Shown here one piece after another: positions 23,055-25,055 of a DNA stretch of 64,000 nucleotides. Each line of letters begins with the position of its first letter. Position 1 is the stretch's first letter. The notes below the pieces were generated by a model. The model saw nothing but the letters and a program-made list of their open reading frames with translations, was not told where the DNA came from and ran no database searches. The DNA comes from an uncultured Porphyromonadaceae bacterium (lineage in GTDB: Bacteria; Bacteroidota; Bacteroidia; Bacteroidales; Muribaculaceae): positions 1-64,000 of the forward strand of contig CAMHQD010000001.1 of NCBI GenBank assembly GCA_946187345.1, read 5' to 3'. Both the position numbers and the translations under genes were made by a program.

Positions 23055-23462
23055 TTATGGAGTAACTTGTCGTATCCTATCTTCTATAAGCGCAATAAGT
23101 TTTTTTGCCGGTTCAATTCTTTCTCTCAATTCATCAGACGAAATTTCATAGACACAATTATAATCGCTCTGTTCTCGCATAGTTTGCAGTTGACTATAAA
23201 GCCTGCCATATTCAATATCAAAAATACCTGATTTTACGTAATGGAGATGGAACATGGCATGAGAACCTTTGTGAGTGCTGATAGCGAAACCATCGTGAAT
23301 AAGCAACGCACTGACGGCATGAAATACAGCATAATAGAGACGATTAGCCGCGCCACTCCAACGATTGGCGTTTGCGAGTATCTCTATCTCTTCAAAAGTC
23401 TCATGTGCCTTTTTTATCTCAAGAGAAACGAGAGTTTCACGTTCTTCAACAGACAATTTCAT
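23055..23462 (-). CDS. HEPN domain protein, partner of MNT nucleotidyltransferase
   Basis: The 135-residue helical protein has the HEPN signature as RLYYAVFH (Arg41-x6-His48) in GAANRLYYAVFHAVSALL. In HEPN/MNT toxin-antitoxin pairs the HEPN protein is an RNase toxin, neutralised by AMPylation by the MNT partner; whether this C-terminal-domain-like HEPN variant is active is uncertain. The start overlaps the MNT stop codon by 4 nt (ATGA type). The pair is clearly richer in A and T than the surrounding genes, suggesting acquisition by transfer. Confidence 0.8.
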   Translation of the reverse strand: MKLSVEERETLVSLEIKKAHETFEEIEILANANRWSGAANRLYYAVFHAVSALLIHDGFAISTHKGSHAMFHLHYVKSGIFDIEYGRLYSQLQTMREQSDYNCVYEISSDELRERIEPAKKLIALIEDRIRQVTP

Positions 23463-23773
23463 AATAGTATGATTTTATCTTGTTCCACATTTTTGCGGAA
23501 TGGAAGGAAATCCCATTCATTCCATTGTTTTTTAGTGTATATGTGAGGGCTGATTTCTTCTCCAAGTTGCCATCCAAGTTCCCTAAAGGGGTATGTTATA
23601 TCATAGTCACCAGCAATCAAATTGGGTTTATCGAGCAATATCAAGAGATCCCAATCAGATTCTTCATTAGCGTCGCCTCGCGCTCTTGATCCATAGAGAT
23701 ATAACGAACTGTTGGGAGGCAGCGTAGTGTGTCCCAACTCTTTAATGCGATCTATGACGTTTGAGCGACTCAT
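23459..23773 (-). CDS. MNT-type nucleotidyltransferase (HEPN antitoxin)
   Basis: The 104-residue protein has the minimal nucleotidyltransferase motif LYGSRARGDANEESDWDLLI: Gly28-Ser29 and the metal ligands Asp40 and Asp42. In known pairs the MNT protein adenylylates the HEPN toxin. The start MSRSNVIDR (23773) was chosen over an ATG twelve codons upstream because a TACCTTTG promoter (23799-23806) would start transcription at about 23792, leaving a 19-nt leader. The HEPN gene follows with a 4-nt overlap. Confidence 0.82.
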   Translation of the reverse strand: MSRSNVIDRIKELGHTTLPPNSSLYLYGSRARGDANEESDWDLLILLDKPNLIAGDYDITYPFRELGWQLGEEISPHIYTKKQWNEWDFLPFRKNVEQDKIILL

Positions 23774-23798
23774 AAATAAATACATTTGAACTTGATTA

Positions 23799-23806
23799 CA
23801 AAGGTA
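23799..23806 (-). promoter_or_regulatory. -7 promoter element of the MNT-HEPN pair
   Basis: TACCTTTG on the minus strand, 26 nt before the MNT start; no clear -33. Confidence 0.55.
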
Positions 23807-23932
23807 CAAAAAAAAATTACTCTAATAAAATTTCCACACAAAATTATACACATATTCAAAAAGAGTGGAAAATCCCGTCCCTTATTAGATATCGCAATGT
23901 CTTTGAATTTCCCTCAAAGTGCGAACAAATTT

Positions 23933-24112
23933 CAGCCCGGAGGGCGTAATTTATATAGCCCCCCACGCCAGTGGGGGGGTGCTATCATCGGTAATCTGCC
24001 TCTGAAAGAGGCCACAATCACAGCGCCGGTTGCCTCCTCCAGAGGCAACCCATCATCTACGTCACCCCCGAGCATTCGCTCGGGGGCTATATTAGTCACG
24101 CCCTCCGGGCTG
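23933..24112. repeat. Composite inverted repeat with four nested hairpins
   Basis: The outer arms CAGCCCGGAGGGCG (23933-23946) and CGCCCTCCGGGCTG (24099-24112) are perfect complements and continue with TATAGCCCCC/GGGGGCTATA. Inside are the hairpins CCCCCCAC-GCCA-GTGGGGGG (about 23959-23978), GCCTCT-GAA-AGAGGC (about 23998-24012), GTTGCCTC/GAGGCAAC (24029-24049) and CCCCCGAGC/GCTCGGGGG (24065-24086). It fills most of the gene-free stretch 23807-24209; no protein is encoded. Its role is unknown. Confidence 0.75.
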
Positions 24113-24131
24113 ATGTTACCTCCGTCGTGGG

Positions 24132-24196
24132 GGCGTTGTGGTGTCGATTGCGGGCGGCGCTTCGCGCTACGCCCCGCAATTCGCCACCACAACGCC
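24132..24196. repeat. 65-bp cruciform just after the SUMF1-fold gene
   Basis: GGCGTTGTGGTG (24132-24143) pairs with CACCACAACGCC (24185-24196), and the inner ATTGCGGG pairs with CCCGCAAT around a GCGC-rich tip. It begins 13 nt after the stop codon (24210) of the gene on the minus strand. Position and shape match the hairpin found after the variable repeat in diversity-generating retroelements. Confidence 0.7.
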
Positions 24197-24209
24197 ACAG
24201 ATAGGGGAA

Positions 24210-25055
24210 CTATCGGGCCAAGCGCAGCCCGAGGTCGCTGTAGCGGCTCGACGGCGTGCTGCCGTTCCGGTACGACACGCGGCAGCCCCCCGCGTCGAGG
24301 CCCCAACTGCCGCCGCGGTGCACGCGGAAAGAGCCCGTAGTGGGGCCCGTCGGATTATTCTGCGCGGCACTGCTGTAACTGCCATACCTGCCGTACCAGT
24401 CCTGACACCACTCCCACACGTTGCCGCTCATGTCGTAGAGGCCCAACTCATTCGCGGTCTTTGTCGCGACTGGATGCTTTGCATAGCCACTATTATCGTA
24501 GTACCACGCCACGTCGCTCAAAGTGTTGCTGCCCGAGTACTTGTAGCCGCGGCTCATAGTGCCGCCACGGGCGGCGAACTCCAACTCGGCCTCAGTCGGC
24601 AAGCGGAACGTCTCGCCCGTCAACGAGTTCAACTTCGTGATAAACGTCTGGCAGTCTTCCCACGACACTTGCTCCACCGGATAACTGTCGCCTCTCTTGT
24701 AGTAACTCGGGTTGCTGCCCATCACAGCAGTCCACAACGCCTCGGTCACCTCAGTCTCGCCAATCGAAAAGTCGCTCAAAGTCACTTGATGAGTTGGCTT
24801 CTCGTTATCGTAAGCGTCGCTGCCCTGCTCGGCCGTCGCACCCATAGTGAACGTGCCGCCCTCAACAGCAACCATCTTAAAGGTGACGCCATTGACAGTA
24901 AACACTTTATTTTCGGGAACATAATATCCTGGATCGTCGAGCAGCAGGTTGGCATCGACTGCATCAATGCGGCCGTCGCCGTTCAGGTCGGGGTCAGCCG
25001 CCGCGGCCGTTAGGCTTGCCGCCATCATAATTGTCAGTAAGGTAATCTTTCTCAT
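24210..25055 (-). CDS. Secreted SUMF1/FGE-fold protein, possible DGR variable protein
   Basis: The 281-residue protein has a signal peptide (about 1-20), a dockerin/EF-hand-like repeat DLNGDGRIDAVDANLLLD (23-40) and a formylglycine-generating-enzyme-fold domain (FKMVAVEGGTFTMGA, LPTEAELEFAARGG, DMSGNVWEWCQDWYG, RGGSWG, LGLRLAR). This C-type-lectin-like fold is also the usual scaffold of DGR variable proteins. The last about 30 codons fit that: every position where relatives have Asn is an NNC codon here (GGC CTC GAC, GGC, GGC AGC, AGC, TAC AGC GAC) while A-free codons are conserved. No sulfatase is nearby, so a role as sulfatase-activating enzyme is unlikely. It is followed by a cruciform at 24132-24196. 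Confidence 0.75.
   Translation of the reverse strand: MRKITLLTIMMAASLTAAAADPDLNGDGRIDAVDANLLLDDPGYYVPENKVFTVNGVTFKMVAVEGGTFTMGATAEQGSDAYDNEKPTHQVTLSDFSIGETEVTEALWTAVMGSNPSYYKRGDSYPVEQVSWEDCQTFITKLNSLTGETFRLPTEAELEFAARGGTMSRGYKYSGSNTLSDVAWYYDNSGYAKHPVATKTANELGLYDMSGNVWEWCQDWYGRYGSYSSAAQNNPTGPTTGSFRVHRGGSWGLDAGGCRVSYRNGSTPSSRYSDLGLRLAR

Follow-up and report, generated by a model that had tools for sequence, protein, structure and literature searches.

Does the variable 3′ end of a lectin-fold gene derive from a DGR, and if so, is that DGR still at work? The gene in question lies in a 64,000-nucleotide stretch of DNA from an uncultured Porphyromonadaceae bacterium (the whole stretch analysed, hereafter the window), which is part of contig C1 of the draft genome G000 (2.79 Mb, 131 contigs, 94.6% complete). 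A first-pass annotation of the sequence had taken the NNC codons near the end of this gene as the pattern left by adenine-specific mutagenic retrohoming. To that annotation, the present analysis adds paralogous targets scattered over the genome, the type of the system (HRDC and not Avd), the nested structure of the downstream cruciform, and a short box after the stop codon. The features are listed in Table 1.

Table 1. Coordinates of the variable-end gene and its downstream flank in the window
Feature	Position	Strand	Remarks
SUMF1/C-type-lectin-fold gene, Pfam FGE-sulfatase	24210..25055	(-)	281 aa; Pfam E 3.9e-49
DGR variable repeat (VR)	24210..24336	(-)	homologous to the L070 and L170 template repeats; mismatches mainly at template adenines
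Post-stop box GTTCCCCTATCT	24199..24210	(-)	starts at the G of the TAG stop codon; similar in C8a; role putative
Nested cruciform, 65 bp	24132..24196		outer arms 24132-24147 / 24181-24196; inner GC-rich hairpin with GAA loop

Adenine sites and the templates of related species

The window gene has an intact reading frame and begins with a stretch that resembles a signal peptide by eye. The codons named in the first-pass list are present in it. Its best solved relative is TvpA, the variable protein of the Treponema denticola DGR (2y3c, E 2.2e-40), and the sequence alignment extends across the variable C-terminus. Judged in this way, the variable end would be carried on a C-type-lectin/FGE-sulfatase fold.

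It was found that intact DGRs are present in the genus of the window. In a Muribaculaceae MAG from red deer (L070), a target gene, an HRDC gene, a reverse transcriptase (RT) gene, and a template repeat (TR) are followed by a second target; judging from their 100% identical RTs and matching distances, L070 and G084 represent one genome. The core of L170 (genome G017, same genus) has the same order, and one target was seen there. The accessory genes of L070 and L170 have an HRDC domain (Pfam E 2e-6 and 2.2e-7), and the TR starts at the stop codon of the RT gene in both loci. The two L070 targets differ from their own template at 16 of 30 A sites and at none of the 81 other sites; likewise, the L170 target differs from its template at 17 of 31 A sites and at none of the 80 others.

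These templates were used as A maps for 111 nt of the window VR, beginning at 24326. With the L070 template, 19 of the 30 A sites and 12 of the 81 other sites are changed (P 1.4e-6). Some of the 12 changes at non-A sites are expected because the template is that of another species, and nine of them fall on third codon positions. When only codon positions 1 and 2 were considered, 18 of 29 A sites and 3 of 45 non-A sites are changed (P 3.4e-7). The L170 template gave the same outcome (P 1.4e-5, or 1.2e-5 for codon positions 1 and 2). Thus, the mismatches of the window VR are concentrated at the adenines of the templates of sister species. A similar bias was found against the L070 template for the paralogues C8a, C8d, C53, and C79 of the same genome (P 1.2e-3 to 5.2e-6). 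The own-genome test comprised the window gene and these four paralogues; C17, C112, C64, and the remaining FGE-sulfatase matches fall outside it, and the three named genes appear more diverged when aligned beside the tested VRs.

All 13 AAC positions of the sister-species template are NNC in the window, and the third-position C at the AAC codons is kept in 11 of 13 cases in C8a and C8d, 12 in C53, and nine in C79. The first-pass annotation had cautioned that a GC-rich genome favours C-ending codons, and the caution was fair: the codon usage of nine window genes alone yields 13/13 NNC with P = 0.003. The NNC part of its argument is weak by itself, and the test against real templates is therefore the decisive one. 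In that test, the proposed adenine-specific pattern was borne out with two congeners' templates, and the comparisons firmly point to a DGR origin of the variable end.

Probable orphaned targets and the missing template

Where are the RT and the template? The draft G000 has 15 FGE-sulfatase matches, among which C8a, C8d, C53, and C79 are the closest paralogues of the window gene over the last 111 nt. C8a and the window gene have the downstream cruciform in common. The target C8d (L009, contig C8 near 21030) lacks the usual stop codon and reads on for 41 residues. An RVT_1 search of the whole draft revealed three RTs above the cut-off, on C9, C14, and C116; none lies on C1, in agreement with the earlier statement that the window has no RT. 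All three are DGR-type RTs and none is close to that of L070, the best identity in G000 being 31%. The C9 DGR (L061 / L003) has its own VR and TR with 17 of 17 mismatches at template A, and its target resembles a phage tail protein. The C116 DGR (L060) also has its own VR and TR, with eight of nine mismatches at template A. The C14 RT (L059 / L001) adjoins an Avd-like gene, and its reading frame opens with a run of Asn codons resembling a template repeat; no VR for this RT was found within 19 kb.

A template for the SUMF1 genes was searched for in G000 using the VR, an inferred all-A template, and two patterns, which returned only the SUMF1 genes themselves, chance-level matches, or nothing. 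A weak DNA match on C26 was rejected as a template; it sits in unrelated reading frames. In summary, neither a matching template repeat nor a cognate RT with its accessory gene was found in the 94.6%-complete draft. The first-pass annotation had held that the lack of an RT or a matching template in the complete genome, along with evenly spread or synonymous variation among strains, would refute a DGR. The former holds only by half, because the assembly is incomplete and divided into 131 contigs, and related species supply a template. Its suggestion that the gene is a remote target or a relic stands.

Is this situation common in the genus? A VR- or TR-like match (E <= 1e-8) was found in 24 of 101 genus genomes, with the window's own counted, and an RT at least 53% identical to that of L070 in two of the 101. 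The template core was found in three of the 397 family genomes sampled. At the locus L172 (G096), which looks like a decay stage of a DGR, a target and a cruciform remain and the template is reduced to a truncated stub; no RT match was found within 8.5 kb. Short matches to the HRDC gene lie downstream of the targets at L127, L137, L083, L110, and L098 and of the second L070 target. No RT match was found in the stretches around the former five loci, which are perhaps further decayed DGRs. The template-core pattern and the L170 RT had no matches in viral contigs, and no RT above 60% identity was found among the 14 and 64 matched plasmid and phage records.

The recency of copying may be read from the third codon positions at which the template is constant. 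The two L070 targets are identical at 36 of 36 such positions, as against 0.61 upstream of the VR, so that retrohoming seems to keep rewriting them. Between the window gene and C8a, C8d, C53, and C79, the identity is 0.81-0.86 in the VR and 0.62-0.73 upstream, so that these VR ends were probably homogenised once by copying, although not lately. For the more diverged C17, the corresponding values are 53% and 60%.

It is very likely that the window gene is an orphaned target of an HRDC-type DGR composed of a target, an HRDC protein, an RT, and a template repeat. It is probably a relic target, since the template-constant positions have drifted among the paralogues, unlike in the intact system. 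In the past, reverse transcription of an AAC-rich template RNA would have introduced errors at A, and the resulting cDNA would have taken the place of the 3′ end of the window gene. A secreted protein of the lectin fold would in this way have gained new surfaces for ligand binding. The target site may have consisted of the VR end together with the post-stop box and the cruciform. The RT/template locus was most likely lost in the lineage of the window, leaving a set of frozen variants; a locus hidden in an assembly gap is less likely than loss. The window and its genus might hold the remains of a lost DGR, in the form of hypervariable lectin genes that are dispersed and frozen.

It seems rather unlikely that the DGR is alive, in the sense that a cognate HRDC-RT-template locus, absent from the draft, still acts in trans to diversify the window gene. 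The DGR core is possibly unassembled, since the genome is an incomplete draft of many contigs; the C53 target is separated from a contig end by 373 nt, and the contigs of C79 and C112 are short (8.9 and 4.1 kb). The window VR could also be recent, because it shows few non-A deviations from the paralogue consensus (by eye) and has NNC at every AAC position, and the reading frame is intact. However, the drift at the template-constant sites of the G000 VRs contrasts with the full identity in the intact system, no HRDC match at E <= 0.1 was found in the own-genome loci examined, and L070-like RTs are rare in the genus. Could the pattern have arisen with no DGR at all, by rapid adaptive change of surface residues combined with exchange between SUMF1 paralogues, in a genome whose high GC content favours C-ending codons? 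The genome does offer 15 FGE-sulfatase matches, and the probability of 13/13 NNC by codon usage alone is not negligible. Nevertheless, this explanation is highly improbable, as two independent templates predict the changed sites even at codon positions 1 and 2, an RT and a template adjoin homologous genes in congeners, and the best solved relative is itself a DGR variable protein. An orphaned and probably relic target remains the preferred reading.

The cruciform, the post-stop box, and flank complementarity

The 65-bp cruciform that had been noted 13 nt past the stop codon is real, and lies just downstream of the VR. Its 16-nt outer arms are 33 nt apart and 94% complementary. The inverted-repeat score of 12 was reached by 0 of 300 dinucleotide shuffles, and folding as single-strand DNA gave z = -8.6. 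Among the loci collected, 26 of 113 distinct SUMF1 3′ ends have a downstream inverted repeat with a score of at least 12 (not all 26 being independent), as compared with 0 of 339 shuffles. By eye, the strong cruciforms follow a common plan of 13-23 bp outer arms, often with A-rich spacers and often with an inner GC-rich hairpin.

It is unlikely, in my estimate, that the cruciform is a mere transcription terminator or a repeat element with no targeting role. Strong inverted repeats follow 16 of 56 VR-like genes and 10 of 57 other SUMF1 genes, a difference that is not significant (P 0.19) and leaves room for such an explanation, although the other SUMF1 genes are, I think, a weak control because many may be diverged VR genes. 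On the other hand, a T-rich tail past the 3′ arm was found in one of the 26 strong cases (six of the 26 tails being incomplete owing to a 110-nt limit), the sequence of the outer arms differs among most loci while their pairing is kept, and in L070 strong folding is seen for the target flank (z -8.8) and none for that of the template (z 0.06).

At the apex of the cruciforms, a GCGNAGC mini-hairpin motif was striking by eye, but it was found in 9 of 44 versus 5 of 69 cases only and was dropped. GNA triloops closed by C-G pairs occur at the apex in the window (24157-24167), L020, L070, and L172, with a modest enrichment of the motif. A second, larger inverted repeat lies beside the target cruciform (23932-24113), with 32-nt arms that are 91% complementary and 118 nt apart. 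A few hundred bases past the cruciform, there is a HEPN-MNT type gene pair: a HEPN protein gene (Pfam E 7e-14, 23055-23462 (-)) and a nucleotidyltransferase gene (E 2.6e-9, 23459-23809 (-)), overlapping by 4 nt.

Between the VR and the cruciform lies the post-stop box. With regard to the 3′ boundary, where VR and TR may differ (IMH and IMH*), the stop codon is followed by TT in the targets (TAG-TT) and by CT in the templates (TAG-CT) of L070, L170, and many, though not all, further loci; the window has TAG-TT. It was revealed that, in relatives with a template, the post-stop site is complementary to the 3′ flank of the template. In L070 and L170, the bases past the VR stop codon are the reverse complement of a stretch past the template. 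The window box GTTCCCCTATC has the position and the form of the L070 box. No template of the window's own genome was found with which it might pair, and the best match score of its box against the L070 or L170 template flank is 7.

Is the complementarity general? The order-level set had 20 RT loci (with matches in 16 of 393 genomes), of which 16 had TR/VR pairs and 15 were used. Added to these were L214, L070, and L170, together with 20 loci from the phylum level and ten from phages or plasmids. L261 was dropped because its repeats are on opposite strands, and L247, L250, L256, and L259 gave no TR/VR pair. After 12 of 66 pairs had been dropped (too few AAC codons in the template or a flank under 60 nt), 54 pairs in 30 flank clusters remained; in the test, each cluster was represented by a single locus, and each locus by a single pair. 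The summed complementarity of own pairs over the 30 clusters was 420.5, while random re-pairing gave a mean of 235.6 (sd 12.1) and reached this value in 0 of 100,000 trials. The own pair beats all cross pairs of its row in 15 of 18 clusters with HRDC and without Avd, and in one of 12 Avd clusters (Fisher P 8.9e-5); the Avd locus L355 beats its cross pairs. L246, L253, and L351 beat the row and not the column. L242 and L070, with 10 nt only, do not beat all cross pairs. The HRDC-type locus L243 has three targets; the tested pair is at the chance level (8.0), while a further target reaches 11.0 and exceeds its 19 cross pairs. The same-strand control on the 30 clusters was also above its permutations (289.5 versus a mean of 212.0; 0 of 20,000), and the direct similarity was highest in L242 and L243 (22.0 and 48.5).

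In most loci with a long box, the duplex would run from the last 2-19 bases of the TR into 17-39 nt of the flank, with some mismatches and gaps. It spans about 46-50 columns in L214 and L258, and 25 nt with no mismatch in L251. The L248 duplex begins 11 nt past the TR, and in L252 and L253 it falls within the drawn boundary. In 11 loci, a 10-base block beside the TR end shows pairing at 104 of 110 positions (permutation mean 60.1, sd 6.2; 0 of 200,000); these loci were picked for having the block, the block sequences differ, and two of the loci (L338 and L345) belong to one flank cluster. L070, L170, and L242 have only the distal part, covering 10, 15, and 10 nt of the target, which starts at the G of the stop codon and ends at a conserved AACAG in the template flank. 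The box is also present at targets away from the core, namely four others in G240 (imperfect in C35 and C28) and one in G429. The remote targets of G240 may carry it by descent.

What may the complementarity do? That it is locus-specific is observed; pairing, guiding, and priming are roles it might serve. I tentatively suggest, at chances slightly short of even, that the template RNA of HRDC-type DGRs without Avd acts as a guide that pairs with the top strand of the target in the interval from the VR stop codon to the cruciform. Such pairing would choose targets in trans and place the RNA for cDNA priming from a nicked end. The template RNA would pair next to the extruded cruciform, and the window box would be a candidate guide site. 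Alternatively, the 3′ end of a nicked target might anneal to the template flank at the box, so that copying would enter the TR directly; the box may then be a footprint of target-primed copying. The box also occurs at targets that lie outside the operon, which makes a long-range fold within a single operon transcript less likely. If the guide reading is true, the missing template of the window is predicted to carry GATAGGGGAAC directly before AG, some 25-45 nt past the repeat. Since the complementarity holds locus by locus, target recognition becomes directly testable by compensatory mutation, and remote targets might be predictable from the template alone. No published description of complementarity between TR and VR flanks was found among titles and abstract openings, a search with most subscription journals outside its coverage.

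Comparison with known systems

The BPP-1 DGR resembles the window-type system in adenine mutagenesis, in a target hairpin downstream of the VR, and perhaps in a 3′ difference between VR and TR, which sets the direction in BPP-1, as far as described in the available text of PMC3240598. BPP-1 has Avd, whereas the window-type system has an HRDC protein. In the phage targets shown there, stems of 7-10 bp carry GRNA loops of 4 nt (PMC3240598), in contrast to the nested cruciforms and longer outer arms of the strong cases here. In the consulted text of that 2011 paper, target recognition beyond VR/TR homology was left open, including initiation at the 3′ end and what precisely the hairpin does; a part of the recognition question may have been settled since. 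Target priming was proposed first (PMC3240598), while the later view, according to the portion available of PMC12875486, places the primer of the BPP-1 cDNA at a spacer adenine. Pairing between the target and template flanks was considered for BPP-1 (P 0.02 with plain shuffles) and is not proposed here; the published rescue by stem swapping speaks against pairing of the stem (PMC3240598, in the text available). By eye, the template spacer of BPP-1 (L262) contains AGGTGGTCA, to which the VR end TGACCACCT corresponds exactly as reverse complement, over 9 nt only; this match is a possible short counterpart of the box.

FGE-sulfatase is a common target class in the DGRs of human microbiomes, with 42 of 206 annotated variable proteins (PMC4159848). 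These targets share the Pfam domain of the window gene; orphan multi-copy targets and flanks are not treated in the accessible text of that paper. A global survey reports cellular DGRs in Bacteroidetes, and its method, by its own account in the sections available, would miss DGRs with remote targets (PMC8144416), the class to which the window's system belongs. Surveys that start from the RT would miss such frozen target families.

The T. denticola DGR with TvpA resembles the window's system in its FGE-sulfatase-like C-type-lectin target, an HRDC accessory gene overlapping the RT gene, and remote targets, as given in the available text of PMC4891356. There, the accessory gene lies between the TR and the RT gene, whereas the order in L070 and L170 is target, HRDC, RT, and TR. 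According to the same text, T. denticola isolates keep target genes without an RT and a template. In the window's system, a single genome holds several orphan targets, and a post-stop box was found.
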